Assembly: GCF_014302995.1 (NCBI RefSeq)
Contig: NZ_CP060295.1
Span: forward strand, 2,480,001-2,544,000
Direction of reading: 5' to 3'
Length of the DNA: 64,000 bases
Origin: Variovorax sp. PAMC26660
Lineage (GTDB): Bacteria; Pseudomonadota; Gammaproteobacteria; Burkholderiales; Burkholderiaceae_C
Part shown: positions 6,809-54,078 of the stretch, in pieces
How the letters are laid out: each line of letters opens with the position of its first letter
How positions within the stretch are numbered: position 1 is the stretch's first letter
Position numbers and translations under genes: made by a program
The notes under the pieces: model-generated
Database searches by the model: none
Seen by the model: the letters and a program-made list of their open reading frames with translations, nothing else
Told to the model about the DNA's origin: nothing

Positions 6809-7570
6809 TCAGAGCGGTGTTCCCTGGTGGAACGCCATGCGCCAGCGGCCGAGCCGTTGCCGCCACAGCGAGCTGCGCAGCGAGTCCGCCGAAGGCCGTT
6901 GCGCAATGGCCTTTCGGTGCACGCGGTAGGTGACCAGCGCCACATCGGGCGCGATGCGTTGCACGCGAAAGTCCGACATCGTGCGTTCCGAAAAGACCTC
7001 ATCGCGCAACGCCTCGACGATGGCCGGCCGTGTCCATGTGGTGCCCGAAATGCCGATTTCCTGGAAGTCGTCTTCAAGCAGTTCCTCGAGCCGTGCGGCG
7101 CTTGCACGCACCTCGCGAAGATGCAGGTCGCCTTCGAGTTTCAGCAGCAAAGCATCGAGATTTTCGGGTGGTGCGGCCTCGTAGAGTTCGAGCGGCAGGC
7201 CGTCCGGATCGGCAAAGAAGGTGAAGCGCCGGCCGGTGAATTCGTCGGTGCGCAGCGGCTCGACTGCGATGCCTTGTGCTGCCAGTTCGTTGGCTGCGGC
7301 TTGCACGTCGTGGACCTCGAAGGACAGGTGGCGCAAGCCTTGTGCTTCGGGCCGCGTGAGGCGTGCGGGTGCATCGGGGAAGGAGAAGAGTTCGATCTGC
7401 GAGCCGTCGGGCAACGCCAGATCGAGCTTGTATGAATCGCGCGCGATGCGGTGGTTTTCGGCGATGACTCGCAGGCCCAGAACCTCGGTGTAGAAGCGCT
7501 TCGACACTGCGTAGTTCGCGCAGATGATGGCTACGTGGTGGATTCGGTTCAGCTGCATCGCGGTGTTCAT
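6809..7570 (-). CDS. VOC (YaeR/SMU1112c-like) domain fused to a DUF4440 NTF2-like domain
   Basis: A 253-residue two-domain protein. Residues 6-130 are a vicinal-oxygen-chelate fold: NRIHHVAIICANYAVSKRFY at the start, FTGRRFTFFADPDGLPLELYE at the end, matching the small YaeR/SMU1112c metalloproteins that normally stop there at about 130 residues. Residues 140-253 form a second domain with LEELLEDDFQEIGISG and GRWRMAFHQGTP, characteristic of DUF4440, an NTF2-like fold. The reading frame is continuous, so this is a true fusion and not an overlap artefact. The metal-site histidine and the final glutamate of the VOC half are visible. The function is unknown. The gene faces the kinase gene tail to tail, and its start is followed upstream by repeat copy 1. 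Confidence 0.8.
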   Translation of the reverse strand: MNTAMQLNRIHHVAIICANYAVSKRFYTEVLGLRVIAENHRIARDSYKLDLALPDGSQIELFSFPDAPARLTRPEAQGLRHLSFEVHDVQAAANELAAQGIAVEPLRTDEFTGRRFTFFADPDGLPLELYEAAPPENLDALLLKLEGDLHLREVRASAARLEELLEDDFQEIGISGTTWTRPAIVEALRDEVFSERTMSDFRVQRIAPDVALVTYRVHRKAIAQRPSADSLRSSLWRQRLGRWRMAFHQGTPL

Positions 7571-7940
7571 TTCCGTTGGCTCTTTCGCTTTGTTGCGAGG
7601 TGCTTGTGTTCTTGTCGTTGTTGTTCGGGGTGCTGCTGTTCTTCAGGGCGGGTGCGAATGACACCGGGTACTCCCCTGTGCGAATGTCCCCCGCTTCGCT
7701 CCTCCTTTATTTCGCTGCGGGGAGCACCCGGTGTCATTCGCACAGGGGCACGCTGCCGGTGATCACCGATCAACGACTGCTCTGACCGCTCGCGTCGATA
7801 CGGGGCTCTTTTTCGCGAAATAAAGGAGGAGCGAAGCGGGGGACATTCGCGAAAAAGAGCACCGTGTCGGCGTGAGCTTGCCCTGAACAGCAGTGCCCTG
7901 AACAACGCACTCACAACGCGACGAACGAAAAGACAAGAGC
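7571..7940. other. gene-free stretch holding repeat copy 1
   Basis: This 370-base gap between two minus-strand genes is mostly taken by the composite repeat at 7632-7893. The remaining bases next to the VOC-DUF4440 start must hold its promoter or the read-through path from the acetyltransferase gene; no clear promoter hexamers are visible. Open frames inside the repeat are products of its GC-rich arms and are not counted as genes. Confidence 0.7.
7632..7893 (-). repeat. composite double-hairpin repeat, copy 1
   Basis: On the plus strand hairpin A comes first (arms 7652-7676 and 7719-7743, 25 bp with one mismatch), then hairpin B (outer arms 7788-7803 and 7862-7877). The loop of A carries the 36-nt core at 7680-7715; the loop of B carries its exact reverse complement at 7815-7850. 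End sequences resemble CTGCTGTTCAGGGCG at the left (with a small insertion) and its complement at 7880-7893. Strand is given in the sense in which hairpin B is read first, which equals the direction of both neighbouring genes. Confidence 0.92.
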
Positions 7941-8402
7941 TCATCCCAGCCGCTTGCGCAGAAAGACGCGAGTGCGTTGTTCCAGCACCAGCCGCTTGTA
8001 TTCCACATAGCCAATGCGTTCGTAGAGCGCGCGGTTCTCGGTCATCTTCTCGTTGGTGAAAAGGTAGATCGAGTCGTAGCCTTGCCGCAGCGCTTCGCGC
8101 TCCGCCAGTTCGAGCAACGCGCGGCCCACGCCCGTGCCCTGCTGTTGTGGCAGCACGGCAATGACGTCGATCAGAAAGCCTTCGTCGGTGGTGTCGAGCA
8201 CCAGCGCGGCCACCACCTGGGCCTGCTGTGTGGCGACCCAGACCTGCGCGCTTGCAATGGCTGCGCCGTAGTCCTTCGCCATCGGGATGGGCGTGAGACC
8301 CAGGCGCGGGATATAGATGCGGAAGGCTTCAATGGCGCACACGGAAACCGCATCCGCATCGGCGGCATCCGCTCGCCGCAATGTCCACGCGGCAGTGCTC
8401 AT
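7941..8402 (-). CDS. GNAT family N-acetyltransferase
   Basis: A 153-residue acetyltransferase. The acetyl-CoA loop is LPQQQGTGVGRALLELAE, preceded by the FLIDVIAV strand and followed by TENRALYERIGYVEYKRLVL, the C-terminal strand-helix of GNAT proteins. The ATG at 8402 is chosen because it overlaps the stop codon of the RidA-family gene as ATGA (8399-8402), a normal sign of translational coupling. The two therefore form a small operon with RidA first. The substrate cannot be inferred. Its 3' end runs into the gap that holds repeat copy 1. Confidence 0.87.
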   Translation of the reverse strand: MSTAAWTLRRADAADADAVSVCAIEAFRIYIPRLGLTPIPMAKDYGAAIASAQVWVATQQAQVVAALVLDTTDEGFLIDVIAVLPQQQGTGVGRALLELAEREALRQGYDSIYLFTNEKMTENRALYERIGYVEYKRLVLEQRTRVFLRKRLG

Positions 8403-10994: not shown

Positions 10995-11350
10995 GTCGGG
11001 GTTTTTTACTGCGCGTTGTGTTGTTGTGGGGTGCTTGGGGTCGGGTTCATTCGGGGCGAGTGCGAATGACACCGGGAGCTCCCCTCCGCGAATGTCCCCC
11101 GCTTCGCTCCTCCTTTATTTCGCTGCGGGGAGCACCCGGTGTCATTCGCACATGGACACGCTGCTGGTGATCGCCGATCAACGACGGCTCTGTCCAACGC
11201 TCGCGCCGATACGGGGCTCTTTTTCGCGAAATAAAGGAGGAGCGAAGCGGGGGACATTCGCGAAAAAGAGCACCGTGTCGGCGTGAGCGTCGCCCTGAAC
11301 AGCAGCGTTCGAAACGCACAACGCGAAGAACAGAAAAGCAGGTTCTCATC
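10995..11350. other. gene-free stretch holding repeat copy 2
   Basis: The 356 bases between the GntR-type gene and the Bug-protein gene consist mainly of repeat copy 2 (11044-11305). The roughly 50 bases beside the regulator start contain a T-run but no clear promoter; the 45 bases next to the Bug stop have no recognisable terminator. Confidence 0.7.
11044..11305 (-). repeat. composite double-hairpin repeat, copy 2
   Basis: Plus-strand order is hairpin A (arms 11060-11084 and 11127-11151) then hairpin B (outer arms 11199-11214 and 11273-11288). Core copies are at 11088-11123 and, inverted, at 11226-11261. The right end is a clean CGCCCTGAACAGCAG at 11291-11305; the left counterpart is degenerate (GGTTCATTCGGGGCG). 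One A-arm difference, GGGAGCT for GGGTGCT, is shared with the homologous arm of copy 5. Orientation agrees with both flanking genes. Confidence 0.92.
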
Positions 11351-29262: not shown

Positions 29263-29593
29263 TGCGTGGGGCGTGAGTTCTTGTGCTGCTGTTCAGGGCG
29301 GCACTCACGCCGACACGGTGCTCTTTTTCGCGAATGTCCCCCGCTTCGCTCCTCCTTTATTTCGCGAAAAAGAGCCCCGTATCGACGTGAGCGCTCAGAG
29401 CACTGGTTGATCGGCCGGAAACGCACAGCGTGCCCAGGTGCGAATGACGCCAGGTGCTCCCCGCAGCGAAATAAAGGAGGAGCGAAGCGGGGGACATTCG
29501 CGGAGGGGAGCGCCTGGCGTCATTCGCACGCGCCCCGAACAAGAGCGCCAAAAACAAGCGCTCCAAAAACCAGCACAAGAGACAACACCCGAG
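29263..29593. other. gene-free stretch holding repeat copy 3
   Basis: A 331-base gap between two plus-strand genes. Nearly all of it is repeat copy 3 (29286-29545); the last 48 bases before the CYTH gene are A-rich and may contain its ribosome binding region, but no promoter or good Shine-Dalgarno is clear. Confidence 0.7.
29286..29545 (+). repeat. composite double-hairpin repeat, copy 3
   Basis: Hairpin B is read first (outer arms about 29304-29319 and 29376-29391, core 29330-29365), then hairpin A (arms 29438-29462 and 29505-29529, inverted core 29466-29501). The left end is a clean CTGCTGTTCAGGGCG (29286-29300). The A arms carry the GACGCCAGG variant in the left arm and the matching CCTGGCGTC in the right arm, so pairing is kept. 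Orientation equals the flanking genes. Confidence 0.92.
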
Positions 29594-42425: not shown

Positions 42426-42830
42426 GAATGAAGCCCCGGTTCTGTTCGTCGGCTTTTGTGCTTTGAGCGCTGCTGTTCAGGGCGAGCTCCCGCCGACACG
42501 GTGCTCTTTTTCGCGAATGTCCCCCGCTTCGCTCCTCCTTTATTTAGCTAAAAAGAGCCCCGTATCGGCGCGAGCGTTGGACAGAGCGGTCGTTGATCGG
42601 CTGCACACCAGCAGCGTGTCCATGTGCGAATGACACCGGGTGCTCCCCGCAGCGAAATAAAGGAGGAGCGAAGCGGGGGACATTCGCGGAGGGGAGCACC
42701 CGGTGTCATTCGTACACGCCCTGAATGCCCCCGAACCCAAGCACCCAAATGCCCCACGGATCGGCGCCCGTTTCATACGCCGCAAGCCACGCAATAGCGT
42801 GGTGAAAAACGGATACCCAAGGACCACCTC
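42426..42830. other. gene-free stretch holding repeat copy 4
   Basis: A 405-base gap between the 37-codon gene and the hydrolase gene, both on the plus strand. Repeat copy 4 covers 42470-42728. The last 100 bases hold the promoter region of the hydrolase, with no clear hexamers, and an AAGGACCACCTC leader just before its ATG. Confidence 0.7.
42470..42728 (+). repeat. composite double-hairpin repeat, copy 4
   Basis: Hairpin B first (42486-42575, core 42513-42548), then hairpin A (arms 42624-42648 and 42691-42715, inverted core 42652-42687). Left end CTGCTGTTCAGGGCG at 42470-42484; right end degenerate (ACGCCCTGAATGCC). The right inner arm of B reads TTAGCTAAAAAGAG where most copies have TTCGCGAAAAAGAG, a four-base change shared only with copy 5. 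Orientation equals both flanking genes. Confidence 0.92.
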
Positions 42831-44871: not shown

Positions 44872-45864
44872 ATGAAACCCTCCCTGTCCCGTCTTGCCGT
44901 TTTGCTGGGGGCGTTGTCGTCATCCGCGCTGTTGACCTTCACGCCGACCCACGCCGCCACCGTGGACGACTACCCGACAAAGACCATCCGCGTCGTCGTT
45001 CCCTATCCGGCCGGCGGCATCGCCGACAAGATCGCGCGCGAGGTCGCCGAGCAGCTTCAGCAGCGGCTCAAGCAGGCCGTGGTGGTCGAAAACCGCAGCG
45101 GCGCAGCCGGCAACATCGGCTTCGACTACGTGGCGCGCCAGCCGGCCGACGGCTACACGCTGCTGCTCGCGCCCGCGTCCAACCTCACGGTGCAGCCCGC
45201 GCTCTTCAAGCAACTGACCTACGACCTCGCGCGCGACTTCACGCCGGTCTCGCTGTTGGTGCAGACGCCGCAGGTGCTGCTGGTCAATCCGAAGCTGCCT
45301 GTGGGCACGCCGCGCGAGCTGATCGACTATTCGAAGAAGCATCCCGGCAAGGTCAACTACGGCATCAGCGTGGGCGCGTACTCGCACCTCGCGGGCGAGC
45401 TGTTGAAGGCGCAGACCGGCGCCGACTTCACCGCCATTCCTTACCAGGGCAGCGCGCCGGCCATCAACGACCTGCTGGGCGGACAGACGCAGTTCATCTT
45501 CAATGAGGTGATCACCGCGATTCCTTTCGTGAAGGCCGGCACGCTCAAGCCGCTGGCCGTGGCGTACAAGACGCGCGCGCCGTGGCTGCCCGACGTGCCG
45601 ACGACCGCCGAAGCGGGCCTGCCCGATTTCGAGGTCACGTCCTGGTACGGCGTGGTGGTGCGCAGCGGCACGCCGGCGCCATTGGTGCAGCGGCTGTCGC
45701 GCGAGTTGCGCGACATCGTGCAGTCGGCCGATTTCAAGAGGCGCTATGACGACATCGGCGCATTCACCGTGGGCAACACGCCCGAGGAGTTCGGCCGCTT
45801 CATCCAGTCCGAGACCGTCAAGTGGACGGCTGTCGTGAAGCAGGCGGGGATCCAGCCCAACTGA
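44872..45864 (+). CDS. Bug-family tripartite tricarboxylate transporter substrate-binding protein
   Basis: A 330-residue periplasmic binding protein. The signal peptide (LSRLAVLLGALSSSALLTF, cleavage after THA) is followed by the Bug signature DDYPTKTIRVVVPYPAGGIA and VVVENRSGAAGNIGFDYVAR. The C-terminal lobe includes GTPAPLVQRLSRELRDIVQ. It is a solitary gene, as is usual for Bug proteins in Comamonadaceae, and might serve the TctA-type permease at 54079, which lacks a binding protein of its own; this is a guess. It is followed by repeat copy 5. Confidence 0.94.
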   Translation: MKPSLSRLAVLLGALSSSALLTFTPTHAATVDDYPTKTIRVVVPYPAGGIADKIAREVAEQLQQRLKQAVVVENRSGAAGNIGFDYVARQPADGYTLLLAPASNLTVQPALFKQLTYDLARDFTPVSLLVQTPQVLLVNPKLPVGTPRELIDYSKKHPGKVNYGISVGAYSHLAGELLKAQTGADFTAIPYQGSAPAINDLLGGQTQFIFNEVITAIPFVKAGTLKPLAVAYKTRAPWLPDVPTTAEAGLPDFEVTSWYGVVVRSGTPAPLVQRLSRELRDIVQSADFKRRYDDIGAFTVGNTPEEFGRFIQSETVKWTAVVKQAGIQPN

Positions 45865-46230
45865 CGCCGGGACGAGATCTTGCTTTGGTGTTCGTTGCGT
45901 TGTTTTGGGGCGCTGCTGTTCAGGGCGTCGCTCACGCCGACACGGTGCTCTTTTTCGCGAATGTCCCCCGCTTCGCTCCTCCTTTATTTAGCTAAAAAGA
46001 GCCCCGTATCGACGTGAGCGTTGGACAGAGCAGTCGTTGATCGGCGATCACCAGCAGCGTGCCCCTGTGCGAATGACACCGGGTGCTCCCCGCAGCGAAA
46101 TAAAGGAGGAGCGAAGCGGGGGACATTCGCGGAGGGGAGCTCCCGGTGTCATTCGCACACGCCCCGAACAGCAAGCGCTCAAAACAAAAGCTCCGCAACA
46201 CACCGCGCCCCAACGTAGTAAAAAACCGAA
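45865..46230. other. gene-free stretch holding repeat copy 5
   Basis: The 366 bases between the Bug gene and the rhodanese gene, both plus strand, are taken mainly by repeat copy 5 (45913-46172). The remainder shows a T-rich stretch after the Bug stop but no hairpin terminator other than the repeat, and an A-rich leader before the rhodanese start. Confidence 0.7.
45913..46172 (+). repeat. composite double-hairpin repeat, copy 5
   Basis: Hairpin B first (45930-46019, core 45957-45992), then hairpin A (arms 46067-46091 and 46134-46158, inverted core 46095-46130). Both ends are well kept: CTGCTGTTCAGGGCG at 45913-45927 and ACGCCCCGAACAGC at the right. It shares the TTAGCTAA change of hairpin B with copy 4 and the GGAGCTCCC change of the right A arm with copy 2. 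Orientation equals both flanking genes. Confidence 0.93.
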
Positions 46231-47862
46231 ATGAGCTGGACCCAGAAGAAGGCCATGACCCCCGCCGAACTGCAGACCCTCCTGCTGGCCGAACCCACCG
46301 CAGAGCTGGCCCTGCTAGACGTGCGCGAAACCCGTTGGTTCGTGCAACGCCACCCCAACCTCGCGCGCAACGCACCGTTCAGCGGCCTCGAACTGCAGAT
46401 CGGCGCACTGGTGCCCCGCCGTTCCACGCCCGTGGTGCTCTACGACGACTACAACGCGCCCGACGGCGCCGCGCAAGCTGCCGCAGCCCTGCTCGCGCGC
46501 ATCGGCTACACCGACGTGCGCACACTCGACGGCGGCCTGCAGCGCTGGGTGACCGAGGGCCTGCCCGCCATCGACGGCTACGGCACGCTGGTCAAGGCCT
46601 TTGGCGACCGCGCCCGGCTGCACTACGGCACGCCGGCCTTGCCCGTCGAGTCGCTGCGGGCTCGCCAGCGCGAAGGCCTGCCGACCACGCTGGTCGACGC
46701 ACGGCCGCGTGCGGAGTTCGAGTTCCTGTCGCTGCCCGGCGCGCGCAACCACGCCGGCACCGAGCTGGCACTGCGCCACTTCGAGCCGCGCGATACGGCC
46801 CACGTGTGGGCCATCAACTGCTTCAGCCGCACGCGCGGCATCATCGGCGCGACCACGCTGCGCCTGCTGGGCCATGCGCCCGACGCAGTGTTCGTCGAGG
46901 ACGGCGTCATGGCCTGGGGCCTGCAAGGTGCGCCGACCGTCCAGAACGCCGCGCCCGACGACGAGCTTCCGCCCGAGTCGCCGCATGTGCTGCGCCGCAT
47001 CGCCGACGACCTCATCGAACGCTTCGCCCTGCCAGTGGCAGGCGCCGACCAGCTCGCACGCTGGCGCACCGACGACGCGCGCACGCTCTACGTCTTCGAC
47101 GTGCGGCCCACCGCCGATCCGGCCCTGGCGGGCACGGCGGTGCAGCAGGTGCCCGGCGGCCAGTTGCTGATGCATTTCGAGAACCTCATCGGCACGCGCG
47201 GCGCGCGCATCGTGCTGCTCGATGATCCGGCCCACCGGCTGCGCGCGGCCGTCACCAGCTTCTGGCTCACGCAGCTCAACCAGGCCGAGGTGCATATCTA
47301 CGACGGCGAGTTCCTGCCGGAACAGGCGTCGCCCGCAACATCCGGCACCGTGAAAGAGGCGCCCCAGTCGCTCGACCACGCCGGCCTCGCCCAGTTGCGC
47401 AAAAACGGTGCGGTCACGGTGATCGACGTCGGCCCCAGCCTCGACTACGAACGCGGCCATCTGCCCGGCGCGCTCTACATGCTGCCGGCCTCGCTCGCGC
47501 CCCTGGCCGCGCATGCCGCGGCCGGCCGTACGTTGGTCTTCACCTCGCCGGATGGCGAGGCCGCGTCCCGCGTGGCGCGCGATGCGCACCAGCGCTGGCC
47601 GGGTTCGGGGGCGGTGTTCACCTGGCTCCAGGACGGAACGCAGGGCTGGAAGGCTTCAGGACGACCGCTGACGACCGCCTTCGTGCCGGCCCAGCTCCTG
47701 ACCCCCTTCGACGACGACTGGGGCTCGGTGATGCGGGTGTTCGGTCCGCGCCGCGACGCGGCCTGGGCCGACTACCTGGCGTGGGAGCGCGCGCTGGCCG
47801 AGCGGGTCCGGCAGGACCCGTCGGTGCGCTTTCGCTTCTTCCCTCTCAGCGCGCCGGCGTAG
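46231..47862 (+). CDS. rhodanese-related sulfurtransferase, four-domain
   Basis: A 543-residue protein of four rhodanese modules in a row, beginning near residues 10, 130, 275 and 385. Only the second has the catalytic Cys at the active loop ([12 protein letters not shown]); the others read LYDDYN, LLDDPA and FTSPDG, with Asp or Ser at that place, and are probably structural. Rhodaneses move sulfane sulfur from thiosulfate or persulfide to acceptors. No signal peptide is seen, so it is cytoplasmic. Its last 17 bases overlap the end of minE on the other strand. The upstream gap holds repeat copy 5. Confidence 0.88.
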
Positions 47863-53758: not shown

Positions 53759-54078
53759 ACGCGGCTCAGGCCGGCTCGGCCTCGCCGGCCGCTCGCCGAT
53801 AGGTTCAGGGCGAGTGCGAATGACGCCAGGTGCTCCCCTGTGCGAATGTCCCCCGCTTCGCTCTTCCTTTATTTCGCTGCGGGGAGCACCTGGCGTCATT
53901 CGCACTGGGCACGCTGCTGGTGATCCCGCGATCAACGACTGCTCTGAGCGCTCACGTCGAGACGGGGCTTTTTTTCGCGAAATAAAGGAGGAGCGAAGCG
54001 GGGGACATTCGCGAAAAAGAGCACCGTGTCGGCGTGAGCAACGCCCTGAACAGCAGCACCTCCGAACGAGACGTACGA
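53759..54078. other. gene-free stretch holding repeat copy 6
   Basis: A 320-base gap between two convergent genes. Repeat copy 6 (53801-54056) fills most of it. Being the only element with convergent neighbours, it is the likely shared 3' signal for the AsmA-like and TctA-like transcripts; no other terminator is visible. Confidence 0.7.
53801..54056 (-). repeat. composite double-hairpin repeat, copy 6
   Basis: Plus-strand order is hairpin A (arms 53814-53838 and 53881-53905, a perfect 25-base-pair stem), then hairpin B (outer arms 53950-53965 and 54024-54039). The A core (53842-53877) has one change, CTTCCT for CTCCT-type. The A arms carry GACGCCAGG paired with CCTGGCGTC, the same double change as copy 3. 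Right end ACGCCCTGAACAGCAG. It is oriented like the TctA-type gene that ends beside it. Confidence 0.92.

Follow-up and report, generated by a model that had tools for sequence, protein, structure and literature searches.

The window analyzed here, a stretch of 64,000 nucleotides from Variovorax sp. PAMC26660 (NZ_CP060295.1, positions 2,480,001 to 2,544,000), contains six intergenic copies of a repeat that is about 260-370 bases long and consists of two mirror-image hairpins, termed A and B. A previous sequence-only reading had proposed six composite elements of 260 bp; all six are present where it placed them and can be aligned with one another. Hairpin A is located to the left of hairpin B in elements 1 (7632-7893), 2 (11044-11305) and 6 (53801-54056) on the minus strand, and to the right of it in elements 3 (29286-29545), 4 (42470-42728) and 5 (45913-46172) on the plus strand. 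Alignment and a covariance model (R1) place the hairpins of elements 1 to 4 and 6 at 7658-7737 and 7793-7872, 11066-11145 and 11204-11283, 29308-29387 and 29444-29523, 42491-42570 and 42630-42709, and 53820-53899 and 53955-54034, respectively. The strand with the G-rich core (G-strand) is the minus strand in the left hairpin of each pair and the plus strand in the right one.

In the element at 45913-46172 the inverted repeats are as described before, with two hairpins presenting one core in opposite orientations. The arms of hairpin B lie at 45916-45961/45988-46033, those of hairpin A at 46066-46099/46126-46159, and a third pair of arms joins core to core (45944-45993/46094-46143). Model R1 detects hairpin B at 45935-46014 with the functional G-strand on the minus strand (67.3 bits, E 7.4e-14) and hairpin A at 46073-46152 with the functional G-strand on the plus strand (78.8 bits, E 1.4e-16). 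The cores, each comprising internal loop and inner stem, were located by core search and alignment at 45957-45992 (minus strand) and 46095-46130 (plus strand). The size of 260 bp is too small for this copy: a stretch from approximately 45865 to 46230 (plus strand, ends accurate to a few bases) is absent from the empty sites of relatives.

The window has 12 matches to a 33-nt core, 11 of them exact and one with a single mismatch, compared to none in 100 shuffles. The 47 hairpins underlying model R1 come from other genomes, neither the window nor loci of its host genome having contributed any; a scan of the window (E≤1) recovered exactly 12 hairpins, each of them on the G-strand alone. The data demonstrate a repeat family, and further copies are numerous: a core search allowing up to three mismatches yielded 168 forward and 169 reverse cores in the host genome, corresponding to approximately 168 copies, 76 doublets of which were studied in detail. 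With 260-370 bp each, these copies make up a sizeable share of the intergenic DNA of this genome.

Hairpin architecture and the folded strand

Across relatives the core consists of a variable self-complementary piece between GAATGTCCCCC and TCCTCCTTKATTTC. Among 237 instances 102 different inner pieces were found; in the host genome the inner stem reads GCGAAGC on the G-strand in nearly all copies read. The 36-nt core recognized in the sequence-only reading is thus present, but it is not a single unit: an invariant internal loop surrounds a short hairpin that varies between species (GCTTCGC here). Comparison between species shows that this purine-rich loop is flanked by an outer and an inner stem, both of which covary. 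In the alignment of these hairpins, 47 in number and diverse, covariation extends over the length of the outer stem and is also seen in the short inner one, and the letters of the loop between the stems are nearly all invariant. Changes on both sides were observed in 26 of 30 pairs, the covariation score was 0.706 vs. 0.186 after shuffling, and 88.6% of the cells are paired, a value that drops to about 40% once the pairing is slid by one to three columns. These data demonstrate the structure, and the resulting hairpin model spans 94 positions and includes an outer stem of at least 22 bp. With a cutoff of E≤0.01 it gave 125 matches in 69 named loci, and with E≤1 another 98 loci yielded 198; in a minority of cases the match is the opposite strand of the same hairpin, with a much lower score. 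By eye, stems A and B are unlike each other, yet they look recognizable in Variovorax and Pseudorhodoferax. From its sequence, a G-quadruplex of two tiers and a duplex loop is conceivable for the invariant loop (for example at 46095-46130), where GGAGGA...GGGGG encloses a stable mini-hairpin.

The doublet is the unit of the repeat: in loci of both bacterial families concerned, the rule is an inverted hairpin pair with the G-strands facing outward. In the stretches of the host genome that were read, 76 doublets were present in addition to eight core matches left unpaired by the pattern used. Of 39 neighboring pairs outside this genome, 38 are inverted and 31 are spaced 45-64 nt apart between the model ends; by eye, the spacers have no sequence in common. 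A hairpin triple at locus L280 is an exception to the doublet rule, and a same-strand pair in a Lysobacteraceae MAG (locus L098) is an exception to the inverted one. At another locus (L064 of genome G142, 1332-1908) two doublets follow each other with a period of approximately 335 nt, resembling a BIME array.

As function, the sequence-only reading had suggested an RNA switch between two separate hairpins and one long duplex of both 36-nt cores. Folding the 45913 copy as RNA indeed predicts this duplex within the minimum-energy structure (whole element, -151.6 kcal/mol; hairpins folded apart, -50.3 and -62.1). However, the exact complementarity is not conserved. At other loci 57 doublets were compared, and just 5 have identical inner stems; full complementarity therefore simply results from the presence of one motif in two copies. 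The same-strand pair in the Lysobacteraceae MAG likewise argues against a switch. We therefore regard the switch as highly improbable.

Wobble-type mismatches were counted in 214 hairpins and showed which strand folds: 463 of them are G-T/G-U on the G-strand and 46 on the C-strand, and 140 loci lean to G-strand wobbles compared to five with the opposite lean. The G-strand is therefore the folded strand. In the host genome this bias is independent of the direction of the flanking genes (89 to 1 for hairpin B with the C-strand in sense), and because the copies share a common ancestry it describes the family rather than individual copies. Of the 102 distinct inner pieces, 70 form triloops on the G-strand; 49 of these 70 are GNA triloops, closed by C-G in 48 cases, and only one of the 19 tetraloops among the same 102 pieces is a GNRA loop. 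GNA and GNNA mini-hairpins have been described as extraordinarily stable DNA structures (PMC4686876). Folding with DNA parameters gave lower energies for the G-strand than for the C-strand in both hairpins of the 45913 element (-26.2 vs. -19.6 and -37.5 vs. -34.5). G-U wobbles are equally expected from an RNA; the GNA loops together with the DNA folding energies favor folded single-stranded DNA, and we infer folding at the DNA level, with RNA as the possible alternative.

Gain and loss, range and placement of the repeat

The six sites of the window were compared with those of five relatives, and 21 of the 30 combinations could be resolved. Thirteen of these were empty (33 nt or less between the aligned flanks), four were occupied, three contained a partial or diverged copy and one contained another sequence. 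The site of element 1 is empty in all five relatives, and that of element 6 is empty in G729 and G007, the two relatives resolved there. Element 4 is missing from G007, G733 and G715, where the site is empty; a 70-nt remnant is left in G729, and G722 has another sequence. At the 45913 site G722, G733 and G715 are empty and G007 carries the element. Element 2 is present in G729, the one relative resolved at this site, and element 3 in G729 and G733, with a partial or diverged copy in G007. Gain and loss at orthologous sites are thereby demonstrated, and since presence varies between related species, the paired-hairpin repeat of Variovorax behaves like a small, hitch-hiking mobile element. In genome G702 (locus L327) the site orthologous to 45913 holds a copy that apparently lacks the middle between the cores and has kept both ends.

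Size (260-370 bp), inverted ends (TTCRGGGCG/CGCCCYGAA), the non-autonomous character and the insertion polymorphism among relatives are features shared with a classical MITE, in which a DDE-type transposase would recognize long terminal inverted repeats as double-stranded DNA and the hairpins would be a by-product. A weak target-site duplication signal in 26 copies (permutation p = 0.046), with one direct repeat of 8/8 bases and one of approximately 20 nt, points in the same direction; an 8-mer test for such duplications showed no excess. In contrast to a MITE, the repeat has a strand-specific folded structure, and the strand-specific wobbles are not expected if double-stranded DNA is recognized. 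Furthermore, its boundaries are not sharp, a clear target duplication is lacking, the two ends have only the core and about nine inverted bases in common, stems A and B are dissimilar, each covarying within itself, and no parent transposon was found. Recognition of this kind is thus quite unlikely. By eye, no transposase was seen near 16 single or split copies, and none was recognized inside a split pair (host genome, 658512-660278, 1.7 kb) as part of an autonomous element; the systematic transposase search covered PF01797. A phage origin was set aside, as no match was found in a phage collection. The plasmid search gave matches in three Variovorax replicons only; these large replicons filed as plasmids (NZ_CP138514.1, NZ_CP138516.1 and NZ_CP070344.1) carry related elements at three to five places each.

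Within the genus the motif was found in 81 of 101 genomes, with up to 146 pattern matches per strand; the remaining 20 count as having zero copies in the sense of no match to one strict pattern. Pattern searches further detected it in 25 of 250 genomes of the family (16 of 141 genera, a patchy distribution), in three of 399 genomes of the order, all belonging to the window's family, and in two of 369 genomes of the class, the window's own and one of family f37, which is probably Lysobacteraceae. A class search with model R1, in which up to 11 candidates were scored per genome, added one further genome each in families f1 and f37. Among the matches listed are Variovorax, Ramlibacter, Hydrogenophaga, Rhodoferax, Pseudorhodoferax and Polaromonas as well as Luteimonas, Lysobacter, Thermomonas, a Xanthomonas MAG and a Stagnimonas MAG.

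The data also show where the repeat is placed relative to genes, which were called with a home-made gene finder. Of 81 intervals with an element, 58 are tandem, 20 convergent and three divergent, compared to 83, 27 and 29 of 139 intervals without one; divergent intervals are thus rarer with an element (3/81 vs. 29/139, Fisher p = 3e-4). Many copies are located 3' of the stop codons of genes, and of 53 tandem settings 41 begin with hairpin B. Inspection by eye of the 16 single or split copies showed that the G-strand is sense to the upstream gene in 10 of the 13 that can be oriented. At least three copies of the host genome (797398, 2848484 and 2920642) were seen by eye to lie directly behind a hairpin of the neighboring gene that resembles an intrinsic terminator.

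This placement, the order of the hairpins in tandem settings, the sense orientation of the single copies and the confinement of the wobbles mainly to one strand would also be expected from a structured 3' UTR RNA, acting as two-way terminator, stabilizer of mRNA ends or site for an RNA-binding protein, which was spread by mobility and kept because it is useful. CsrA may be named as such a protein, since the loop carries GGA motifs. However, a structure required in an mRNA should track the sense strand, and in the doublets the strand selected in hairpin B or A is independent of the host transcript; selection of the G-strand in sense and antisense alike argues against a host-mRNA structure. The prevalence of GNA loops, with GNRA in one of 102 inner pieces, the copies that already stand behind a terminator-like hairpin and the lack of an Rfam match argue against it as well, and such an RNA is unlikely.

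We consider it probable that the repeat is a non-autonomous, mobile palindromic element whose hairpin doublet is recognized as folded single-stranded DNA. A regulatory switch accounts for fewer of the observations than mobility does. The mobile unit would consist of hairpins B and A, inverted and about 45-64 nt apart, and each hairpin would be recognized as a folded single strand, the G-strand, through its outer stem of at least 22 bp, the invariant internal loop AUMAAGGAGGA/GGGGGACA and an inner stem with mostly a C(GNA)G triloop. As the two hairpin copies are inverted, each DNA strand shows one outward-facing recognizable hairpin, as in REPINs. An enzyme encoded elsewhere, presumably acting in trans, would copy or move the hairpin pair, and insertions would survive mainly 3' of stop codons.

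A putative open reading frame runs through part of the copies. In element 1 it comprises 125 codons (7567-7944, minus strand; ORF list, copy 2487682) and its ATG lies at the stop codon of the upstream gene. With up to eight mismatches, TTGCTTTTCTGTTCGTCGCGTTGTG is present at the B end of 26 of the 76 copies, preceded at 8 nt by a start-like ATG, with A, T and G present in 20, 21 and 24 of the 26, and in most of them this ATG is at or just 3' of the upstream stop codon. Among 41 B-first tandem copies, 31 have no stop codon in the matching frame until past the second core, compared to two and five for the other two frames; in 19 of the 31 the frame ends at or beside an ATG, in five of these within the element. 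The sequence thus suggests that this relay frame is coupled to both neighboring genes in many copies. In the 45913 copy ACG replaces the ATG, and the frame terminates in hairpin B. Across the entire element the frame is open in 21 of the 41 B-first tandem copies. In the 12 A-first tandem copies, where it is antisense, it is open in six across the element and in 11 to the second core; the respective numbers are six and eight of 20 for convergent and two and two of three for divergent intervals. Since antisense frames are open as often, openness is no proof of selection for translation. Variability at the three codon positions (0.064, 0.060 and 0.078) gives little codon signal, the core spacing modulo 3 is mixed (49, 24 and 3), and a protein search with the frame yielded nine matches, one named hypothetical and the others without a name. 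Support for a conserved small protein is therefore weak. A frame that begins at the upstream stop codon and ends at the downstream start codon would pass translational coupling through the insertion; if used, it would show how coupled genes can tolerate an insertion between them. That the repeat represents a new class of mobile doublets in Comamonadaceae-type bacteria and Lysobacteraceae, marked by a purine-rich internal loop in place of a tag, recognized as single strand and surviving in operons via a translated stop-to-start relay, is a doubtful proposal, which we make tentatively.

Comparison with known systems

The window and 18 loci gave no Rfam match at gathering score, in agreement with the earlier impression that no described class has this layout; with E up to 10, the region 45800-46300 matched two microRNA models only, both far below their gathering scores. 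Literature searches with core strings returned insect papers only, unrelated by title, and none of the papers retrieved on REP, MITE or BRE describes this repeat in its title or the start of its abstract, few subscription papers being among those covered. As judged from the Rfam and literature searches, the paired-hairpin repeat is apparently undescribed so far.

Among the repeats of related bacteria, the Betaproteobacterial repeat element (BRE) is likewise intergenic, about 90 bp long and known from Rhodoferax and Polaromonas; in contrast to the repeat studied here, BRE is described as tandem copies with a DNA similarity >70% that also occur in Bordetella, and by this description the plans of the two differ (PMC3110155). 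The Betaproteobacteria toxic small RNA (RF02278) is a short repeated RNA of Burkholderiales, but it differs in sequence, and its model has no match in the window or the 18 loci. A single RF02278 match in the host genome lies outside the window (C1:3781883-3781945), and a search of 61 relatives gave a match in 48. The idea of a toxic sRNA with an anti-Shine-Dalgarno sequence, based on CCTCCTTT in the C-strand core, was dropped, as it is the opposite strand that carries the conserved structure. Rickettsia palindromic elements are palindromic mobile repeats that are compatible with open reading frames, as is the Variovorax repeat, but they are located within genes and not between them. Integron attC sites, for which R'/R'' boxes and an integrase are the criteria, were considered because they are recognized in folded form, as is proposed for the repeat.

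The closest parallels are with REPINs and their RAYT/TnpAREP enzymes. REPINs are inverted doublets for which folding within single-stranded DNA or mRNA has been predicted (PMC3116915), and TnpAREP binds folded single-stranded REP strand-specifically (PMC8266576). The obvious candidate for a mobilizing enzyme, and a candidate only, is Y1_Tnp (RAYT-like), which is encoded by one gene in the host genome (C1:3876126-3876461, locus L210). The gene adjoining it is, as we assume from its likeness to glutamate synthase, gltB. Y1_Tnp is present in 97 of the 101 genomes of the genus, usually as a single gene, and looks vertically kept; it was found in 28 of 31 genomes with a pattern match and in 24 of 29 without. 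Its profile score rises with the copy number of the repeat (Spearman 0.56 for the 97 genomes with a match and 0.52 for all 101, uncorrected for descent), for which the simplest reading is that element-rich species are close relatives. Most, though not all, Y1_Tnp proteins of zero-copy and high-copy genomes alike contain the catalytic motifs according to a pattern that caught another stretch in some cases, G736 having no protein. Neither proximity nor a presence pattern supports RAYT as partner, and the correlation is confounded by descent.

The Variovorax repeat resembles REPINs in its inverted hairpin doublets, its many intergenic copies, the unconserved spacer and its mobility. A strand-specific folded recognition element is a further likeness, here predicted from the wobble ratio and the GNA loops. 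In contrast, its hairpin has about 94 positions compared to 20-40 bp for a REP (PMC3733652), and an invariant internal loop takes the place of the GTAG or CGTC tag: within 25 nt of 152 hairpins GTAG was found 5' in one and 3' in none, and CGTC 5' in two (background 4.1 and 11.7%). In addition, no element lies beside a Y1_Tnp gene, with zero model matches in 30 such loci (97,517 bases). Taken together, the Variovorax repeat works like a REPIN and stands outside REP by tag, size and proximity to a RAYT gene. If recognition as folded single-stranded DNA holds true, REPIN-like mobile DNA would not be bound to the GTAG-RAYT pairing, common soil and plant bacteria would have a further mode of folded single-stranded DNA recognition, and the invariant loop should allow the partner protein to be found by pull-down.
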